A stretch of 33,217 nt of DNA. Source: Verrucomicrobiota bacterium. Lineage in GTDB: Bacteria; Verrucomicrobiota; Verrucomicrobiia; Limisphaerales; PALSA-1396. Location of the stretch: NCBI GenBank assembly GCA_016200005.1, contig JACQFP010000030.1, positions 1 to 33,217 on the forward strand. Reading direction: 5' to 3'. The notes below the pieces were generated by a model. The model had not been told where the DNA came from. It worked only from the letters and a program-made list of their open reading frames with translations, and searched no databases. The position numbers and the translations under genes are program-made. Shown here piece by piece: positions 22,730 through 32,538 of this stretch. Position 1 is the first letter of the stretch; every line of letters starts with the position of its first letter.

Positions 22730-24199
22730 TCAAGGAGAAGACGCGGGTTTCACCGCCAGTGTTTTGAGCATGTCAGCCTCGACTTTGGAAAGTGTCTGGC
22801 CGGTTTGTTCGGCGCGGCCCGCGGCCATGCCGGTGGCGTACGCAGTGGCCGCCGACGTGCCGCTGACATAAAACGCCTGTCCGTTGAAGTAAACGATGCT
22901 GGAGCCGGGCGCGACGATATCGACGAAGCTGCCTCGGTTGGCGTAGCTGGCGATCTGGCCCTTGCGATCTCCCGCCGTCACGGCGACGACTTCCGGATAC
23001 GCGGCCGGGTAGGTCGGCGTGGTGACGGGACTGTTGCCAGCGGCGGCAAAGAAGAGCACGCCTTGCTGAGAGGCGCTTTGAATGACGTTGTGCAGAAAGG
23101 TGCTGTCGCCGCCGCTGCCGAGGCTGAGGTTGATCGGATTGGCGCCGGCGTTGACGGCCTGATAAATCCCATAGGCGACATCAAACGTGGTCGTCATCAC
23201 ATTTTTTCCGTAAACATCGACGGGAAGAATCTGGACGGAACTGCTGCCGCTGAGCATTCCATCCAGGCTGCGCAGAATGGTTTCGGCCATCGACGTTCCG
23301 TGGGTCGGCAGCCCCGAGTTCGATTGCGATTCACCAGCAACGGCGATCGATGGGAGGAGAAAGGCATCGAGTCCGCCACCCAGCGACTGCACCTGCGTAT
23401 CGATCAGGCCGACGATGAGACGGCCGGTGTCGCCGGGCACCCTCGGCTTTAATTGAATCGGAGGTGAGGAACTGGCCAGCACCTGTTCGGCGGGCGCGGG
23501 GCGTTCGATGGGATAGTTGTAATCCACCTGGGCGACGTCCGGATTGTTGGCGAGCGATTCGCGCGCGGCCTGGGCGGCGGCTTCGTTTTCAAACTGGAGA
23601 CGGTACGCGTGAAGACCGTCGATGCGGCCGATGACTTTGGCACCGAGCAGACGGGCGAGGTCGTCGATGCTCATCTTCGAGCCGGGCTTCATCGCCACGA
23701 TCAGTTCGTTGGGGATTGGTTTGGCAGAGCCGGACGCGGTAGTCTTGGCGGGGACACGGACGAGTTGCGTGGCTTCCTGCAACGAAGTGCTGAAGACAAA
23801 CAGCCGCGGGCTGCCGTTGGTCTGGGGTAGCAGCGCAAAATTCAAATTGCCCAGCAGCGAGCGGAGCGCATCGCCTTGCTGGAGATTCTTGAATGTGACT
23901 GAAGAGGTATGGGTCGTCCCGGGTTCGACATAAACCTGCCAGCCGGTGGCGGTGGTGATTTTTTGCAACAACTTTTCCAGGTCCCACGATTGGATTTCCG
24001 CGTCCACACGGTTTTCTTTTCCCCGCCAAGTGAGGGAATCGGCGGCGTGGACGAGGGGAGCAGTGACGAGTATGAAACCAAGGCAGGCCGCAGTGAAACC
24101 CACGCGTTGGAGTTCACGCTTTAGCGTGCTCCGGCAGCCTAAAGGCTGAACTCGAACATCCCGGGAGGCCGCAATTTGGTTTTCGTGGCGTAGGTTCAT
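22730..24199 (-). CDS. Secreted subtilisin-like (S8) protease with STN-like domain
   Basis: From the ATG at 24197-24199 the protein has 489 residues. A signal peptide core (VGFTAACLGFILVTAPLVHA) ends near residue 52. Residues about 60-140 look like an STN/secretin short domain (VDAEIQSWDLEKLLQKIT … LQQGDALRSLLGNL). Residues 165-235 are a propeptide of the inhibitor I9/fervidolysin kind (ELIVAMKPGSKMS … DVAQVDYNYPIE). The S8 domain has catalytic D267 (LIVGLIDTQV), H300 (LPTHGTSMAE), oxyanion N389 (AAAGNSP) and S449 (VSGTSAAT), so it should be active outside the cytoplasm. It follows the TIGR03790 gene by 35 bases on the same strand. A palindromic repeat supplies residues about 16-31. Confidence 0.9.
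   Translation of the reverse strand: MNLRHENQIAASRDVRVQPLGCRSTLKRELQRVGFTAACLGFILVTAPLVHAADSLTWRGKENRVDAEIQSWDLEKLLQKITTATGWQVYVEPGTTHTSSVTFKNLQQGDALRSLLGNLNFALLPQTNGSPRLFVFSTSLQEATQLVRVPAKTTASGSAKPIPNELIVAMKPGSKMSIDDLARLLGAKVIGRIDGLHAYRLQFENEAAAQAARESLANNPDVAQVDYNYPIERPAPAEQVLASSSPPIQLKPRVPGDTGRLIVGLIDTQVQSLGGGLDAFLLPSIAVAGESQSNSGLPTHGTSMAETILRSLDGMLSGSSSVQILPVDVYGKNVMTTTFDVAYGIYQAVNAGANPINLSLGSGGDSTFLHNVIQSASQQGVLFFAAAGNSPVTTPTYPAAYPEVVAVTAGDRKGQIASYANRGSFVDIVAPGSSIVYFNGQAFYVSGTSAATAYATGMAAGRAEQTGQTLSKVEADMLKTLAVKPASSP
24109..24154. repeat. Second copy of the GGAGTTCA/TGAACTC repeat, in the S8 protease start region
   Basis: GGAGTTCA at 24109-24116 and TGAACTCG at 24147-24154 are the ends. 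CACGCTTTAGCGTG and AGCCTAAAGGCT are internal small palindromes. The outer sequence matches the element at 832-904. It is read on the minus strand as the positively charged part before the signal peptide core (TLKRELQR). Confidence 0.7.
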
Positions 24200-24234
24200 C
24201 GTCAATTGTTCGACAGTCGCGAGGCGCAATGTAC

Positions 24235-26802
24235 TCAAGGTGAAACGCGGACGCGATAGAAACGTTGCGGAGAATTGGGGTTGGTTTCGATCCATTGATA
24301 AGTGCCGACGTTGGTGGGCACGATTGTGTCGCGGAGTTGAAACGTGTTCGTGATGTTGTTGGCGCTCAAAACATCGTAAGAGTGACCAGCAATGGCAGGC
24401 CAGGAGAGCAGGAATGGCGAGGGTCCAGTGAGCTGAATCGGGAAAGACGAATCGCCGACGACGAGCCGGATGAACTTCGTCTCCGTGCGATATTGTTTTC
24501 CGTCGTTGGCGGTGACGAGCGCGTAAAACGGATGCAAGCCGAGATCGAGATTCGTGCCGACTACGGAAAAGTTGGCCGTGGATTGATTCGAAACCGTCGC
24601 CAGCAGACCGCCGGTGCTGAACAGTTCCGTCCTGGCAATGTTGGTGGTGTTGGCAGTGACGGTGAATTGCAGCGTCGCTCCGACGGCGATGTTGCTGCCA
24701 CCGGGAAGACTCATGAACGTGGCAGCAAGCGGCATGTTTTGGACACGGACGGTTTGCGTGATGCGTTTTTGCGTGCGCACATGGCTGCCTTCGTAAACGA
24801 CGGCGGTGAGTTCGTGATACCCGTCGGCCAGCGGGGTGGTGTTGAGCGGAAAGCTGAGGGAGAGATTCGTCACCCCAGCGGAGATGTAGAAATGATTGCG
24901 CGGTTGAAGATCAGAAAGATTCTCGTCGAGTGTTTGTGGCCCGGCGGGCGTGATAAGGAAGGTGCCGGTGAGAGTCGCCTGAATTTGCGACGCGGCATAT
25001 CCTATCCCGCGCGCGCGCAGATTAAAGTCCGCGCTGCCGGCGATACCGTCGGTCACGTCCTCGGCAGCGAGGCCATCGTCGCCCTGAAGTTGGGGCGTGG
25101 CATTGATGGCATTCGCGAGTTGCTGGACAAAGCCGGAGATGGCTCCGCTGCCCGAATTGTTCGTCACGGTTACGGTGACCGATGCGCCATTCGTTTTGGT
25201 CACGTCAAGCTGGAGCACGTCGCCCAGCACCAGCGTGCCGGCCACATTGAAACTGCGAATGCCCCACGCAATCGAATCAAGAAAGTTGCTGCGGCTGGCC
25301 GCGACATACGTCGTCAGCACCGACGCACTTCCAACGGAATTGCTGACGGCAATCGGAATCTGGTTGCCCACTTTATTGGGATCGAAGGATTGCAGTTCGA
25401 TGCGATCGCCGTGCAGAAAAGCCTGGACCTTGGTGGCGTTCTGATTCAACGGAGAATTCAAAACTCCGGCCAGACCCGAAGCGACAGATTTGATGGTTTC
25501 GCTTGCTTGCACCGTGTAATTCATCGGCGGTCGTCCGGGTAGGGTTACGGACAGAACGTTGCCCTGACGCGGCAGGATGTTGGTGAGCGTTTGCCTGAAC
25601 ACGCCATCAAGGAACAGATCGACTTGCTGAAGCGGGTGTTGCGCGTCGCTGACGGCGAATTGAAGGGAAAGATTTGTGGTGCCGGTGAGAAGGGCATTGA
25701 TTGGCAGATTGATCCACATTCCACAGGCCGGCTGTGCGAACGGCGCGGCGAGCGGTTCGCCGACGATGAGACCTTGATATGGATTGGTCAGACTTTGGTA
25801 GTAACATTCCGCCAGACTGAAACCGCGTGCCTGGTAGAAATAATTCTGGGGCGAAGGAAATTTTTGCAGGTAGTTGCACGGCTCCACGACCGTTCCGTAG
25901 CCGGCGGTCGCACCCGCGTACAGAAACTTCAGGATGGTGGTCTGATCGTTCGGTTCAAGAATAATTCCGCCGAACGAAGTGAGGCTGTCGGCCATGGCAC
26001 CCGGTATAAACGCGTTGGGGGAAATATTGAATTGATAGAGTCCGTTTTGATAACCGAGCAAATTGGTCTGGCCAAGAGGTGAGTCGGAAATGATTCGTTG
26101 CGTGGAATAATTGCCGCGGAGCCGGGTATTGAACACGGCATTGTCGAAAGTTGAGTATCGGACATTGCGCGCCGGGTCGCTGCTCTTGGCGAGCAGGACG
26201 GTTTGGGTGGGAAAAGTGGCGTCGCTGGCAAGACCGCGGTCGATAATGAGTCTGGCTTGCGCGAGGTTGCTGGCGGTGATCATCGTGACGAGGTAAGTGT
26301 TGGTGTCGCTGCCCGGTGCGACGTTGCGGAAAAGGTCTTCGCTGCCAGCGTAAGCATTCGAGCTGTTGTCAGGCAAAGAGCAGGAATCGGGTGTGTTGGG
26401 TGGCGGTGTGGTGTCGGCCTTGAAGCCGTAGAAGAGAGCCGACGTGGTGCTGTTGAGGCCGTTGGTGTCTGCGACGCGATACGGGATGTCCATTGAAAGC
26501 AAAACGAAATCGATTTGATTGGTCAGACCGCGCGCGGTCAGCGTGTTCCTGAGCGGGGTGGCGAGATTCGTTTCAAACTGTCCGCGCGTCCAGATCGCGT
26601 TGCCACCCGTCCAGTTGATGCGCACGATATTTTGTGGCGGGAGTTGCCGCTGTTCGGCGTAGTAATTGCCCAATTGTACGGAGTTGGTGCTGGTTTGATT
26701 CACGACCAGGGCGACGTTTAATCCACTTCCGGCAGCCCAAAGCGAGGAGGGCAGTGAGACGACTGAAAGAGTCGTCAGCAAAAAAATTACCAATTGTTTC
26801 AC
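24235..26802 (-). CDS. TIGR03790 family secreted protein
   Basis: The best start is the GTG at 26800-26802, which gives a signal peptide (VKQLVIFLLTTLSVVSLPSS, then LWAAGSG) and 855 residues. An ATG further upstream (26970) reads through the divergent gene's start. Residues about 25-380 match TIGR03790: LNVALVVNQTSTNSVQLGNY, YAEQRQLPPQNIVRINW, DFVLLSMDIPYRV and an acidic/serine loop (SCSLPDNSSNAYAGSEDLF). The remainder is a string of beta-rich Ig-like modules, ending in a tail with SYDVLSANNITNTFQ and RFYRVRVSP. TIGR03790 is uncharacterised but is reported only in genomes with exosortase. It leads into the S8 protease gene. Divergent from the haloperoxidase. Confidence 0.85.
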   Translation of the reverse strand: MKQLVIFLLTTLSVVSLPSSLWAAGSGLNVALVVNQTSTNSVQLGNYYAEQRQLPPQNIVRINWTGGNAIWTRGQFETNLATPLRNTLTARGLTNQIDFVLLSMDIPYRVADTNGLNSTTSALFYGFKADTTPPPNTPDSCSLPDNSSNAYAGSEDLFRNVAPGSDTNTYLVTMITASNLAQARLIIDRGLASDATFPTQTVLLAKSSDPARNVRYSTFDNAVFNTRLRGNYSTQRIISDSPLGQTNLLGYQNGLYQFNISPNAFIPGAMADSLTSFGGIILEPNDQTTILKFLYAGATAGYGTVVEPCNYLQKFPSPQNYFYQARGFSLAECYYQSLTNPYQGLIVGEPLAAPFAQPACGMWINLPINALLTGTTNLSLQFAVSDAQHPLQQVDLFLDGVFRQTLTNILPRQGNVLSVTLPGRPPMNYTVQASETIKSVASGLAGVLNSPLNQNATKVQAFLHGDRIELQSFDPNKVGNQIPIAVSNSVGSASVLTTYVAASRSNFLDSIAWGIRSFNVAGTLVLGDVLQLDVTKTNGASVTVTVTNNSGSGAISGFVQQLANAINATPQLQGDDGLAAEDVTDGIAGSADFNLRARGIGYAASQIQATLTGTFLITPAGPQTLDENLSDLQPRNHFYISAGVTNLSLSFPLNTTPLADGYHELTAVVYEGSHVRTQKRITQTVRVQNMPLAATFMSLPGGSNIAVGATLQFTVTANTTNIARTELFSTGGLLATVSNQSTANFSVVGTNLDLGLHPFYALVTANDGKQYRTETKFIRLVVGDSSFPIQLTGPSPFLLSWPAIAGHSYDVLSANNITNTFQLRDTIVPTNVGTYQWIETNPNSPQRFYRVRVSP

Positions 26803-26920
26803 AGGCCCATCTTCGTCTTGAAAGGCAAATTCGTAAAGCGAGAGTCGAGGTCCAGTCGCCGTGCGCCACGGTGAATTTTCTTTACATCCAAAGCCGGCAA
26901 TGGTATTGGGTTCTGTTTTC

Positions 26921-29020
26921 ATGAAAATATTGCGACTTGTTTTATTTCTCACCTTTAGCCTCAGTGTCATCAGTCAGGCCCACGCCACCAACAGCGTCGC
27001 CCGCGTCTGGGACGAACGGGCGCTCGCCGCCATACGCGCCGACACGCCGCATCCGCCGGCACAGGCGCGCAATCTCTTCAGTCTTTCGGTTTGCATGTAC
27101 GATGCTTGGGCGGCCTACGACAGCGTGGCGGTAGGTTATGTTTATCACGCCAAACATGCGGCCACGAATTTGTTGGCGGCCCGCAACGAAGCGATCAGCT
27201 ACGCGGCTTACCGGATGCTCAAGGAACGCCATTTTTATTCCAAGACTTTCAGCAACACGCTCTATTTGGACGACGCGCAGATGACGGCGCTTGGCTACGA
27301 CACCAATAATGTCTCGCGCGATACTTCCACGCCGGCGGGTGTTGGTAATTCTGTGTATGACGCCGTTTCCGCCTGGTTCATCAACGACGGCGCGCGGCAA
27401 ACCAATGGCACACGGACAGCGCCTTACCCGGATTATCCGACCAATCAGGGTGGATACATTTATATCAATCCGCCGTTGGCCACTTCCCTGCCTGGCATTG
27501 ACGATGGCTCTGAGGGCACAAACGGTCCCGGCCATACCGTGGTGGACATTAATCGCTGGCAGCGGTTGCAAGTCGTCAACGGAGTGGATCAAAACGGTTT
27601 TCCCACAGGCCCCATTCAAACTTACCTCGGTGCGCAATGGCTCGGGGTGCGGCCCTTTGCGCTGACCCGCACTGATCCGACGCTGTCTTGGATTGATCTG
27701 GCCGGGCCGCCGCCGCATCTCGGCGGAGTTGGTGATGCCGAGTTTAGAAACTCGGTAGTGGAAATGATTCGCAAAAGCAGTCAACTCACGCCCGACGACG
27801 GAGTGATGGTGGACATTTCGCCCACGGCTTTCGGAAACAATACTCTCGGCGCCAATGATGGCACCGGGCATCCCATCAATCCATACACAGGGCAACCCTA
27901 TCCATCGAACCTGGTGAAACGCGGTGACTTCGCGCGCGTGCTCGCTGAATTCTGGGCGGACGGCCCCAGCTCCGAAACTCCGCCGGGCCATTGGAACGTG
28001 ATCGCCAACAACGTGAGCGACAACACCAACTTCGTCAAACGCCTCGGTGGCACGGGTCCGGTGCTGAACGATCTGGAGTGGGATGTGAAGTTGTATTTCG
28101 CTTTGAACGCCGCCGTGCATGATGCGGCCTGCGCCGCCTGGTCGCTCAAACGCTACTACGACGGCTGGCGTCCAATCAGCGCGGTTCGTTACATGGCGTT
28201 GCAAGGTCAGTCCAGCGATCCGAGCAGCCCTTCGTATAACCCCAATGGTCTGCCGCTGATTCCGGAACTGATTGAACTCGTCACCAGCAACACGGTGGCG
28301 TCAGGTCGGCACGCTGGCCTGACCGTCGGCAAAATCGCAGTTTACAACTGGCCGGGCGGGCCTACCAACCCCGTCACGCAGCACAGTGGCGTCAAATGGA
28401 TTCACGGCGAGAGTTGGGTGCCGTATCAAAAGGCCACCTTTGTCACCCCCGCTTTTCCCGGGTACATTTCGGGCCACAGCACGTTCAGTCGGTCAGCGGC
28501 GGAAGTTCTCGCGGCCATCACGGGCACGCCTTATTTTCCCGGTGGCCTCTTTGTGGCGGACATTGCGGTTGCGAACACATCGACGGGACTTGCTTTTGAA
28601 AACGGACCAAGCCAGCCCGTCCAGTTGCAGTGTGCGACCTATTACGATGCGGCGGATCAGGCTGGCATTTCCCGGATCTTTGGCGGCATTCATCCGCCGG
28701 CGGATGATTTTCCCGGTCGCCGCACCGGCGCGCAGTGTGGCAAAGGTGTTTGGGCGCTGGCGCAAAAGTATTTTGACGGGTCCATTGCCCAGGTGCCCTT
28801 CGCTCTGACCATCCGGCCTTTGGATCCCACGGGTTGTGAATTGCGCTTCGATACGGTGCGCGGTTTCTTCTACAAGCTGCAATCCACCTCAGACCTGCTC
28901 CAGTCATTTGCCGATGATCCGGCTGGATTTGTCCAGGCCTATGATACATCGATGGTCCGCACTGACAATGTCGCTAACTCCGCCAAGTTGTACCGCGTGC
29001 TCCGCGCCTCCGCGCCGTGA
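26921..29020 (+). CDS. Vanadium-dependent haloperoxidase / PAP2-like secreted protein
   Basis: From the ATG at 26921 the protein has 699 residues and a signal peptide (KILRLVLFLTFSLSVISQAHA). The N-terminal part has VARVWDERALAAIRADTPHP and SLSVCMYDAWAAYD. Toward the C-terminus lies the PAP2/haloperoxidase signature: KWIHGESWVPYQK, PGYISGHSTFS with H519, and GGIHPPADDFPGRRTG with H591 and R600/R601. These positions bind vanadate or phosphate. Both a peroxidase and a phosphatase reaction are possible. The last 60 residues form the tail GFFYKLQSTSDLLQSF … KLYRVLRASAP shared with two neighbours. Only 118 bases separate its start from the divergent TIGR03790 gene. Confidence 0.88.
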   Translation: MKILRLVLFLTFSLSVISQAHATNSVARVWDERALAAIRADTPHPPAQARNLFSLSVCMYDAWAAYDSVAVGYVYHAKHAATNLLAARNEAISYAAYRMLKERHFYSKTFSNTLYLDDAQMTALGYDTNNVSRDTSTPAGVGNSVYDAVSAWFINDGARQTNGTRTAPYPDYPTNQGGYIYINPPLATSLPGIDDGSEGTNGPGHTVVDINRWQRLQVVNGVDQNGFPTGPIQTYLGAQWLGVRPFALTRTDPTLSWIDLAGPPPHLGGVGDAEFRNSVVEMIRKSSQLTPDDGVMVDISPTAFGNNTLGANDGTGHPINPYTGQPYPSNLVKRGDFARVLAEFWADGPSSETPPGHWNVIANNVSDNTNFVKRLGGTGPVLNDLEWDVKLYFALNAAVHDAACAAWSLKRYYDGWRPISAVRYMALQGQSSDPSSPSYNPNGLPLIPELIELVTSNTVASGRHAGLTVGKIAVYNWPGGPTNPVTQHSGVKWIHGESWVPYQKATFVTPAFPGYISGHSTFSRSAAEVLAAITGTPYFPGGLFVADIAVANTSTGLAFENGPSQPVQLQCATYYDAADQAGISRIFGGIHPPADDFPGRRTGAQCGKGVWALAQKYFDGSIAQVPFALTIRPLDPTGCELRFDTVRGFFYKLQSTSDLLQSFADDPAGFVQAYDTSMVRTDNVANSAKLYRVLRASAP

Positions 29021-29127
29021 AGTGTCTTGAGGCAGACTGATGGACAATTTGGTGGGTTTTCGAGGCCCGCGTCACCCTTACCCTTTCAGGATTTGACAGC
29101 ATAAAATCTAAAATCAAAAATAAGTTC

Positions 29128-29156
29128 TTGACATTAATTCTGACCTAGCCTCAAAT
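29128..29156 (+). promoter_or_regulatory. Likely sigma-70-type promoter
   Basis: TTGACA (29128-29133) and TCAAAT (29151-29156) are spaced by exactly 17 bases. A second TTGACA lies at 29093-29098 in an AT-rich stretch. The leader would be about 80 bases to the ATG at 29242. This stretch is markedly AT-richer than the rest of the window. Confidence 0.5.
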
Positions 29157-29241
29157 TGCCATCACTCAGCGCAAAAAATGCAAAACCAGAAGAACCATTG
29201 ATTACTCACCACACCACGAAGTTCCTCAACAAAAATCAAAA

Positions 29242-29385
29242 ATGAACACTACCAAAAAACACTCCCTCGTGAAACGCGTAGCTTCAAACGAAAAAGCGTT
29301 TCAACACAGTCTGGCGATCGGTCTGGCCCTGGCCACTCTCTGGACTGGCTCTTTGCCGGCTCAAGTTACGTTGGATCCGGCGTGA
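29242..29385 (+). CDS. Detached signal peptide of the following gene (47 codons, frameshifted)
   Basis: The ATG at 29242 opens 47 codons to TGA at 29383. The product has a basic start (MNTTKKHSLVKRV) and a hydrophobic core (SLAIGLALATLWTGSLPA), then a cleavage-like LPAQV. It ends exactly where the next frame begins with GTG (29382), sharing GTGA. A signal peptide with no mature domain followed by a large extracellular protein with no signal strongly suggests that both were one gene broken by a frameshift near 29365. A sequencing error would look the same. I found no slippery homopolymer at the joint. Confidence 0.75.
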   Translation: MNTTKKHSLVKRVASNEKAFQHSLAIGLALATLWTGSLPAQVTLDPA

Positions 29386-31373
29386 ATACGGGCAACAACA
29401 ACACGAGGACCGAAAGCGACTTGGCTGGGCAGTCAGCGTACCCAAATCTTGGCGACCCGGATACCGTTGGCGCGGGGATCACGAATGCGGCGCCTGTGAC
29501 TACGCCCAATGGTTTGTTGTTTTTTGAAATTACCAACGTCATCAATTTGTCCAAAACCGATGGTGGCGCTTCTGGATACTTTGCCGGTGACCAACTGGAA
29601 CCGGGCATCAACTTGACTGCGTCCACGGATGGCCAGTCGGCGGAGATTCTCAGCTACCTCACGCTTCCGGCCGGCACCAACTACATGGGTGTGAGAAGCG
29701 ATGACGGTTTCGGGGTCCAGTCGGGCACAAATCCTCAGGACATATTTACCAGGAGTCTGGTGGGTGAGCGCCCCGGTGGTGCTGGAGATTTGGTGTTCGC
29801 GTTTGTGGTGCCACCAGGAGGGGCCGGCACGTATCCTTTCCGCGTCATCTGGGAGAATGGTGGCGGGGATTCCCATGTTGAATGGTACACCGCAGATTCG
29901 CTGGCCCCCACGACCAGGGTGCTCGTCAACGATATTGCCAATGGTGGCATCCCGGCCTATCGCGAGCTATCCGGGGCTACGGTGACCCCGTTCGTCAAAA
30001 GTGTGACTCCTCTGCCCGTGCCGCGGCAAATAGAGGCCGTCCAAAATAAAGTGACTGTGGTCTTGGCAGACGGGACAACCGCGGTCAATACTAACTCCAT
30101 TACCCTTGAAATCGACGGAAGTCCCGCAGCGCTCACAATCACTCGCGCAGGAAGCACGGTGACCGCGGCTTCAGGCGTCCCGAGTGGACTGTTCGTCGCC
30201 GGGGAGGGTCATACGGCCGTGCTCAAGTACAACGACGGGGGAACGTATTCGCGCACCCAGGGATGGGCATTTGTCAACTTTGAAAACCTGGTGCTACCAG
30301 TCAGTCCGGTCACGGGGGAAAACTTCGATTCATACCCGGAAGCGACCAGTCCGGCGACTACGGTGCCCCCGGGTTGGACGGCGACAAATTACACCTGGCT
30401 CGAACAAACTCCACCTGCGGGATTTGGGGTTTGGGATCTTACAGACGTGGCGAATGACCCCTTCGTGAACTGGGTCATGATCACCACCAACACGGTATTT
30501 CCCCTCGAGGATGAGGTGATGCTCAACAACACGGCCCAAACGATCAACGGGATACCGTTGACCAATGTTGACAATTGGATGTCGAATAATTTGCTTTTTG
30601 CGGCTTCCGACGGGCGTGCGCGAAATGCTACTGACCCCATTGGCGGCACTAACGTCAGTGTCCCTCAAATTCAAATCGCAGTCAGTGCACCATTCAACCT
30701 GTCCACCGTGACCAATCCCGTGTTGACCTTCTCCAGTGGTCTTAGAATGTCTGGAAACGGAGAAGAAGACGCCTTGGAATACTCAGTTGATAACGGTGCG
30801 ACCTGGTTGCCAGCCCTCCTCTGCTTTAACAATAACCGCACCTTCCTGAATGCGGACGGGTCCTATGACGCCGTGAAAATCCTGACCAATGTCTGGACCG
30901 ATGTCGCGAAATTCCCGGTTGTTCAAGACCCAACTACCCGCGATTGGATTAGCTCCGGGCCGCTCGGTCAAAAGTTCGGGGATGTGCTCCTGACACCTAT
31001 CTCAGCCGCGTTGGCACCGTATATCGCGGAACGAAACGACTCGGTGGCCGCCCGCAAGGTGGAAGCGATTCGTCTGCCAGCCGCAAGCAAGAAGAGTCAA
31101 GTTCGCCTTCGTTTCAATCACTACGGCTCGTGTGGTTGGGAATGGGGTGTGGACAACATCGCGTTCTACGACATCGCTCCCACCACGCCTGCCCCTGTCA
31201 TTAGCAGCGTAGCAGCTTCTGGTGGTGTGGTCACCGTCAAATGGGCCAACGGTGGAGTGCTCGAGTCTTCGCCGAGTCTTAGCAGCCCGGTTTGGACGTC
31301 AACGGGCAACTATCTCGGAACTTTTAGTGAGGCGGCAGGATCCGGTACAAAGTTCTATCGCGCCAGGCGATAA
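29382..31373 (+). CDS. Large extracellular protein with PA14-like and Ig-like regions
   Basis: The open frame from GTG 29382 gives 663 residues with no signal of its own; the preceding 47-codon frame supplies one. The N-terminal 180 residues look PA14-like (GINLTASTDGQSAEILSYLT, NYMGVRSDDGFG, TYPFRVIWENGGGDSHVEWY). A beta-sandwich follows (TPLPVPRQIEAVQNKVTVVL), then a lectin/jelly-roll-like region from NFDSYPEATSP to RLRFNHYGSCGWEWGVDNIA. The last 55 residues carry the tail VTVKWANGGVLESSPSL … KFYRARR also found on the haloperoxidase and TIGR03790 proteins. It may be a surface or secreted carbohydrate-binding protein. The function is not known. A strong terminator follows its stop. Confidence 0.75.
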   Translation: MNTGNNNTRTESDLAGQSAYPNLGDPDTVGAGITNAAPVTTPNGLLFFEITNVINLSKTDGGASGYFAGDQLEPGINLTASTDGQSAEILSYLTLPAGTNYMGVRSDDGFGVQSGTNPQDIFTRSLVGERPGGAGDLVFAFVVPPGGAGTYPFRVIWENGGGDSHVEWYTADSLAPTTRVLVNDIANGGIPAYRELSGATVTPFVKSVTPLPVPRQIEAVQNKVTVVLADGTTAVNTNSITLEIDGSPAALTITRAGSTVTAASGVPSGLFVAGEGHTAVLKYNDGGTYSRTQGWAFVNFENLVLPVSPVTGENFDSYPEATSPATTVPPGWTATNYTWLEQTPPAGFGVWDLTDVANDPFVNWVMITTNTVFPLEDEVMLNNTAQTINGIPLTNVDNWMSNNLLFAASDGRARNATDPIGGTNVSVPQIQIAVSAPFNLSTVTNPVLTFSSGLRMSGNGEEDALEYSVDNGATWLPALLCFNNNRTFLNADGSYDAVKILTNVWTDVAKFPVVQDPTTRDWISSGPLGQKFGDVLLTPISAALAPYIAERNDSVAARKVEAIRLPAASKKSQVRLRFNHYGSCGWEWGVDNIAFYDIAPTTPAPVISSVAASGGVVTVKWANGGVLESSPSLSSPVWTSTGNYLGTFSEAAGSGTKFYRARR

Positions 31374-31464: not shown

Positions 31465-31764
31465 TGGGGAAGGCTCAAGTTGAGCATGATGGTTGCTTCG
31501 AACAATAGCCGCTTAATCCAGATGAACAGGGGCGCGAAAAACCTTGAAGCGCTGGTATGGTCAAAGAGCGCTGAAAAAAGGGACTGACTCTCCGGTTTGA
31601 AACGTGTTTCCCAAGTCATGGGCATTGCCCTGACCCGCTCAGCGGGCGTGGATTCACCAGCACGCTGAAATCTACAAACGAGATGTCGCCGACGCCCGAT
31701 GACTAGTTGTTCCGACGCACGAGAATTCTTGCAAAGCTCGGGAGCGAATGATAAACACCCGCAC

Positions 31765-32538
31765 ATGCGAATGAGTAAGTTCTGGCTCTCGACTGTTTCC
31801 GTCCTGGTGATCACGCTGGCCTCCGGCTCCACGGTTCGCGCGGCGGCGGTAAACTTGAACCCGGCCGCAGACGCGTTCGTCACCACTGGGCCTGCGAATA
31901 ATCTCAGCACGAACAATTACGGCGGTGGCGGTTCAATCGGGTTGTCGGCGGTGGGCTTGCCCAAGGGCGAATTTCAATCCGTGCTGCGTTTTGATACGAG
32001 CAGCGCGAAGACCACCTTCGACGGTCTTTACGGCGCGGGTTTGTGGAGCTTGCAATCAGTGAGCTTGCAACTCACCGCCACCGCGGTGAACAACACCAAT
32101 TTCAACGCGAACAGCGCCGGCTCGTTTGCCGTGAACTGGATGCAAAATGATGGTTGGACCGAAGGCACCGGCACCCCCAACGCGCCTGGGAGCGCGGGCA
32201 TCACGTACTCCAGCTTGCAAGGGTCTTTCATCAATCCAACGGCGGACGAAGCGCTGGGAACATTCAGCTACAGTGGCGCAAGCAGTGGCGCGTTCATTTA
32301 CGCGCTCAACTTGACCAGTGGTTTCACGGCCGATCTCCTGGCCGGCGATCTCGTCAGTCTTCGCCTTCTGGCTGCGGATGGCTCGGTGAGTTATCTCTTT
32401 AATTCGCGCGAGTTTGGAACGGCAGCCAATCGACCGCTGCTGAGCATCACCGCCGTGCCGGAGCCGGGAACGGTGTCTTTGCTGATCTTGGGCAGTTTGA
32501 TGTGCGCGGTGCGCAGATGGACGCGGCGATGGTGTTGA
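31765..32538 (+). CDS. PEP-CTERM protein with DNRLRE-like domain
   Basis: Starting at the ATG at 31765 (or 31771), the protein has about 257 residues. The signal peptide is MRMSKFWLSTVSVLVITLAS, cleaved after VRA. The mature region fits a DNRLRE/CBM96-like beta domain: NLNPAADAFVTTGPANNLST, NNYGGGGSIGLS, SVLRFDTSSAKTTF, MQNDGWTEGTG. The end is a classical PEP-CTERM signal: VPEPGTVSLLILGSLMCAVR and then RWTRRW. Such proteins are cut by exosortase at the membrane and released to the surface or matrix. No exosortase gene is in the window. The start at 31699 adds 22 residues before the signal peptide and was rejected. Confidence 0.88.
   Translation: MRMSKFWLSTVSVLVITLASGSTVRAAAVNLNPAADAFVTTGPANNLSTNNYGGGGSIGLSAVGLPKGEFQSVLRFDTSSAKTTFDGLYGAGLWSLQSVSLQLTATAVNNTNFNANSAGSFAVNWMQNDGWTEGTGTPNAPGSAGITYSSLQGSFINPTADEALGTFSYSGASSGAFIYALNLTSGFTADLLAGDLVSLRLLAADGSVSYLFNSREFGTAANRPLLSITAVPEPGTVSLLILGSLMCAVRRWTRRWC

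Follow-up and report, generated by a model that had tools for sequence, protein, structure and literature searches.

More than 100 different proteins of one Verrucomicrobiota bacterium carry the same tail at their very end, and this tail also occurs in many related Verrucomicrobia. We give an even chance to the reading that it serves targeting, as a folded FN3-like domain at the C-terminus of Sec-exported proteins in Verrucomicrobiota; our working name for it is FYR-CTERM. Targeting, and with it the destination, the machine or partner involved and any cleavage, is what we infer from computation. No prior description of the tail was found in the open-licence PMC literature, which is a narrow basis for calling it unpublished.

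Results

Three neighbouring genes encode proteins with the tail

The window, i.e., the whole stretch of DNA analysed, is the complete contig C30 (33,217 bases), one of the 87 contigs that make up a genome of 6.54 Mb. On its reverse strand, the gene of a long TIGR03790-type protein occupies 24235–26802 and matches TIGR03790 with 147.3 bits (cut-off 67). Judged by eye, its start is more likely the GTG at 26802, which precedes a signal peptide, than the first ATG of the frame at 26970. The tail of this protein (24238–24453, reverse strand) ends in ...QRFYRVRVSP. On the forward strand lies a haloperoxidase-like gene (26921–29020) with Pfam DUF6851 over the cut-off, VCPO_2nd and PAP2 below it and a signal peptide recognized by eye; its tail at 28802–29017 ends in ...KLYRVLRASAP. 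The third carrier gene (29242–31373, forward strand) has its tail at 31155–31370, ending in ...KFYRARR, and was at first called PA14-like, a label that Pfam does not support. Its signal peptide, from 29242, and its body, 29382–31373, are in different frames: within 29242–29385, the signal-peptide frame stops at 29383 and the body is out of frame with it, so that the gene is broken or its sequence contains an error.

A PEP-CTERM protein encoded at 31699–32538 adjoins the three genes, and two types of C-terminal label are thereby found side by side. Further, a subtilase gene (22730–24295) shares the reverse strand with the TIGR03790 gene, and its first ATG lies inside the end of the latter (24235). 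This subtilase has no tail, and another subtilase of the genome (L128:2176–3819) has one.

The three tails belong to one module

The preliminary description had proposed that the three proteins end in one common C-terminal module. This is confirmed, and the phenomenon extends further than first claimed. The module has about 70 residues, is predicted to form an FN3-like β-sandwich, and closes with F-Y-R and a few further residues. Direct pairwise comparison of the three tails is not significant, with 215, 111, and 800 of 2000 shuffles scoring as high. When 24 other tails from this genome are combined into a profile that excludes the three, it matches the last ~60 residues of each, at 45.8 bits in the TIGR03790 protein, 20.1 in the so-called PA14-like protein and 17.8 in the haloperoxidase, compared with 12.5 for the best of 900 shuffled tails; this test is not fully independent because its 24 rows came from a profile seeded by the three tails. 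In a profile–profile comparison (hhalign), the 24 tails align to 24 haloperoxidase tails (our own and 23 relatives) with E 2.5e-11 and probability 97.3. The lack of significant profile similarity that the preliminary description named as speaking against its proposal was not found.

The module stands at the end of the reading frame

The first profile (A1), made of the three window tails, gave 33 matches in the genome, these three included, and of the 30 for which DNA was read, 28 are situated where an open frame ends. A second profile (A2) was built from 27 aligned tails, leaving out the internal copies L005 and L030 and the short contig-edge copy L011. It finds at least 150 matches, a lower bound since 150 were scored among 304 candidates and the rest remain unscored. 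When 147 of these matches were read, 128 proved to end 0–5 residues before a stop codon; without the 27 seeds, all of which are C-terminal by choice, the count is 101/120. One of the 128 (C33:97792) is a shortened tail without F-Y-R. Another match (C31:144659) ends 17 residues before the stop and runs on to ...SYRLRKF; judging by these letters, it is probably also a tail.

The remaining 18/147 matches are clearly internal, 10 with a stop at least 76 residues further on and 8 with no stop in over 160 residues, up to where the DNA examined ends. These internal copies, part of which are arranged in tandem, argue against a strict end signal. Some precede parts that, by eye, resemble a formylglycine-generating enzyme or a hydrolase. 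In L065 (G000:C6:86401–99190), a single open frame holds an fn3 match followed by three tandem FYR-like modules, the last of them C-terminal. At ~316–330 kb of G000:C22, there is a run of very similar tails of the PSPSTGFTLQQN type, and their similarity suggests recent local duplication.

In 40 other Verrucomicrobiota genomes, 57/60 matches end 0–7 residues before the stop; of the other three, one is followed by 46 residues and two run off the DNA, one of these after only 3 residues. This sample favours strong matches because one or two per genome were picked by hand among the best matches listed. The preliminary description had weighed an ordinary Ig-type domain without C-terminal bias. As to the fold, this alternative is probably right, since the tail is predicted to be of Ig type, yet the bias it denies is strong in the bacterium's own genome (128/147) and in the 40 others (57/60).

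Outside the phylum, the profile has one match each in 5/118 Planctomycetota genomes (best E 2.7e-5) and in 11/118 Bacteroidota genomes (best E 7e-6). None of the ten that were read is C-terminal, the nearest lying 31 residues from the stop. Among the weak matches in Bacteroidota is an FN3-like module that ends Y-Y-R-L or F-Y-R-L and directly precedes a T9SS CTD. From 5 loci of the 11 matches, we scanned the three (L331–L333) that were selected because ~100 residues follow the match, and in 3/3 a TIGR04183 domain follows over the cut-off. Unlike the FYR tail, this module is therefore not terminal.

Proline is the preferred last residue

Over 186 tails, the R of F-Y-R is conserved in 96%, F in 87% and Y in 82%, and high conservation is also seen for one W at 86%, one L at 77%, and one D at 71%. 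The commonest spacing after F-Y-R is four residues (61/128). Proline is the last residue in 79/129 tail genes as opposed to 35/354 background genes from that DNA, which gives an odds ratio of 14. The background was chosen mechanically, by taking the longest open frames with a minimum of 100 residues, and may include spurious ones. At positions −2 to −7, proline is nearly absent (4, 0, 1, 0, 0, and 0 of 129 tail genes). The A2 profile itself has proline last in 18/27 rows, a mild bias that may slightly favour such ends. In an earlier count of 124 genes, all four proline codons are used (CCG 44, CCC 11, CCA 11, CCT 10), and this mixed usage indicates selection on the residue rather than on the DNA. 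Glutamine is the next commonest last residue (19), and R, E, and D also occur. In the other genomes, proline is last in 25/57 and glutamate in 13/57 tails; terminal proline is thus not universal, which counts against the targeting reading.

The carriers are diverse proteins with signal peptides

Signal-peptide-like starts are enriched among the carriers, as had been supposed: by our own stricter rule, applied where the start lies within the DNA examined, they are found in 79/113 tail genes versus 86/286 others, and by a laxer rule in 89/113 versus 114/286. None of the three PEP-CTERM genes in the DNA examined holds the tail domain, which agrees with the expectation that the carriers lack PEP-CTERM. 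Seven PEP-CTERM labels exceed the cut-off in the whole genome, far fewer than the tails. As paralogues of tail proteins, the PEP-CTERM proteins were discarded, with one weak match (E 3e-4).

We scanned 20 carriers, taking every second one from the 40 best with 250–1100 residues. Pfam matches at E ≤ 0.001 occur in 9, each of a different kind, and 11 have none. The kinds comprise RCC1, fn3 with PKD, Ig, Ig with exo/endo-phosphatase, GBD_T9SS_assoc, subtilase, and LamG with others, as well as CBM6 and β-propeller below the cut-off. This diversity supports the earlier claim of one module on unrelated proteins. Thus, many unrelated proteins with signal peptides share one C-terminal domain, as is expected of a C-terminal targeting domain.

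The tail is predicted to be an FN3-like β-sandwich

AlphaFold predicts a confident small β-sandwich for the TIGR03790 tail (pLDDT 91.4, six strands) and for the haloperoxidase tail (pLDDT 86.6, five strands). Foldseek returned no match at E ≤ 0.001 for the model of the TIGR03790 tail. On structural re-alignment, FN3 domains are prominent in the lists for both models with Z ~7 (below 8). The arrangement is a widespread one, and likeness at this level is not proof of descent, nor does it single out a relative. The FN3 domains of PelI and Pel3 are within the first six rows for both models, where further FN3 domains score equally well. For one model they have Z 7.3 and 7.0 with an rmsd of 2.5 over 68 residues, for the other Z 7.0 and 6.8. 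We saw no structure of a T9SS CTD in the 50 rows of either list; some likeness to it may exist. Searches of 27 tails against Pfam and NCBIfam gave no credible model match, with stray single matches down to E 0.0033. In PDB sequences, the tail profile finds glucanase/chitosanase modules (best E 8.7e-5) and FN3 designs, matches that we take as a likely fold-level resemblance.

The haloperoxidase keeps its body and exchanges its tail

We read the tail as a targeting domain mainly because the label of the haloperoxidase switches with the phylum and the enzyme stays. A search with this protein gave 35 named loci, and the close relatives are found in Verrucomicrobia, several of them named Limisphaerales or Pedosphaera. 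All 29 readable Verrucomicrobial loci (of 30) end in the FYR module, 26 with proline last, and F-Y-R varies among them to F-F-R, F-H-R, F-V-R, F-I-R, and once F-H-H. Two loci, L322 (Verrucomicrobia) and L324 (Gammaproteobacteria), are cut off before the tail is reached. Outside the phylum, the enzymes are 40–51% identical and have other C-termini, each represented by a single locus. At the C-terminus, the Saprospiraceae protein (L320) has a T9SS type A domain that exceeds the NCBIfam cut-off, and the Planctomycetaceae protein (L319) a dockerin that exceeds the Pfam cut-off. The Flavobacteriales protein (L321), whose locus is cut, has by eye a T9SS-like end with no model match, and the Lysobacterales protein (L318) has by eye a terminal hydrophobic stretch with arginines and no NCBIfam match.

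TIGR03790 was tried as a second exchange family and proved a poor test. Neither an F-Y-R tail nor PEP-CTERM was seen in 30 canonical loci, a few of which were read in the wrong frame, and among 22 frames read in other genomes for the long form and genes near it, one of which lacks a stop, 6 end in a recognizable tail with proline last. In one of five proteins, the canonical domain (L163:1501–2529) matches Peptidase_C25 below the cut-off (E 0.0094), and a profile search against the PDB gave one unrelated weak match; TIGR03790 may have a distant gingipain/PorU-type fold. A literature search found no paper on TIGR03790.

Tail-rich genomes and secretion machinery

At E 0.001, the FYR profile matches 109/240 Verrucomicrobiota genomes, 84 of them with at least three tails, where the counts per genome rest on the best ~24 matches scored. 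Exosortase occurs in 84/84 of these tail-rich genomes versus 98/156 others, TIGR03790 in 74/84 versus 51/156, and a GspD-like match at E ≤ 1e-60 in 83/84 versus 108/156. The GspD limit was set after seeing the list, and the contrast rests on it because at 1e-10 nearly all genomes match (235/240). The co-occurrence of GspD and of exosortase with the tails is confounded by kinship, which these tests ignore: 20/49 genomes without strong GspD belong to one tail-free genus (g3). Further, many tail-poor genomes hold both GspD and exosortase. The bacterium itself has three exosortase matches and a best GspD match of 444 bits (cut-off 351.35; G000:C18:9387–11540, reverse strand) with an in-frame TAA inside the match. 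SprA was found neither in its genome nor in any of 96 Verrucomicrobiota, in a search whose controls were silent; two Bacteroidota (G240 and G241) were positive in a later one. No paper on type II secretion in Verrucomicrobia and Planctomycetes was found in a literature search.

Discussion

A FYR-CTERM that serves targeting could work as follows. Synthesized with a Sec signal peptide, the carriers would reach the periplasm and fold there. The terminal sandwich, with its last strand bearing F-Y-R and its free C-terminus, most often proline, would then offer a common handle for recognition, via which very different proteins might be taken across or onto the outer membrane. Among known machines, a type II-like system appears likeliest by analogy; this is a first guess and the weak step of the scheme. 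We propose it because an FN3 domain holds a T2SS signal in PelI/Pel3 and because GspD is present. According to PMC7949064, PelI has a T2SS signal in loop 3 of its FN3 domain and requires further signals outside this domain. The PelI/Pel3 domain has the FN3 fold predicted for the FYR tail and is a structural match of both tail models; in contrast to the tail, it is N-terminal, belongs to gammaproteobacterial enzymes and needs further signals.

More tentatively, FYR-CTERM might be the recognition signal of an undescribed pathway of secretion or surface display, in which a receptor of its own would read the folded FN3-like domain together with the free, usually proline, C-terminus. FYR-CTERM would then be the Verrucomicrobiota counterpart of the T9SS CTD. 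The comparison with this CTD, made in the preliminary description, holds as an analogy and fails as an identity, with no CTD model matching in 27 tails and SprA not found in 96 genomes of the phylum. Like the FYR tail, the T9SS type A CTD is a small C-terminal β-sandwich that recurs many times in a genome, on signal-peptide proteins of diverse kinds, and it takes the place of the FYR tail on the Saprospiraceae haloperoxidase. The T9SS CTD has seven strands, as opposed to the six or five predicted for FYR tails, and is cleaved by PorU in P. gingivalis (PMC4804311; PMC10202324).

Rather doubtfully, the tail could instead be a binding module and not itself an export signal. Its carriers would leave by another route, and the tail would then anchor them to a polysaccharide of the surface or to a protein nearby. 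Dockerins and some FN3 domains act as such modules, and a dockerin holds the same place on the Planctomycete haloperoxidase. The internal and tandem copies also fit this explanation, as do the LamG, Ig, and CBM6-like parts among the carriers. However, the consensus consists mainly of core and F-Y-R residues with no polar site evident by eye, and a binding module has no plain need for a C-terminal end with a favoured last residue.

It is unlikely that the tail is nothing more than an FN3-like end cap, specific to the lineage and freely shuffled, with the role of stabilizing extracellular proteins. Here, the terminal proline, a strand breaker, would only end the edge strand or hinder carboxypeptidases. 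The plain FN3-like fold predicted for the tail suits such a cap. So does the history of the carriers: 84/118 tail proteins compared have a paralogue in the sampled DNA (E ≤ 1e-10), 82 of them a tail-bearing and 30 a tail-less one, and spread by duplication together with tail loss or gain therefore appears common. Classical fn3 (PF00041) has the fold predicted for the tail and, like it, a last strand that contains Y-R, but differs from the tail in that no PF00041 match exceeds the Pfam cut-off in 27 tails and that only 4/12 readable fn3 loci of this genome (L213 being left out of 13) are C-terminal. Moreover, three of these fn3 proteins bear a FYR tail at their terminus (in one of them a tail-like end seen by eye only). 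This position of fn3, mostly internal, speaks against a mere cap, as does the replacement of the tail by known sorting or anchoring domains in other phyla.

A divergent T9SS CTD or exosortase-type signal is very improbable: such signals would account for a C-terminal β-sandwich on signal-peptide proteins as in T9SS (PMC4804311) and for exosortase in every tail-rich genome, but 0/27 tails match TIGR04183, PF18962 (Pfam, NCBIfam), or a PEP-CTERM model (NCBIfam), SprA was not found in the 96 Verrucomicrobiota searched, and by eye no transmembrane helix or basic cluster is seen in 128 tail ends. PEP-CTERM with exosortase, known from Verrucomicrobium, resembles FYR-CTERM as a C-terminal label on exported proteins that is also present in this genome. 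Its PEP motif, transmembrane helix, and basic cluster, as given in PMC1569441, are not seen in FYR tails.

If FYR-CTERM is indeed a targeting domain, the set of surface and exported proteins of these bacteria would be readable from sequence, and the tail would provide a bait for the translocon. Verrucomicrobiota would then be the second phylum in which a folded C-terminal β-sandwich marks proteins for the surface.
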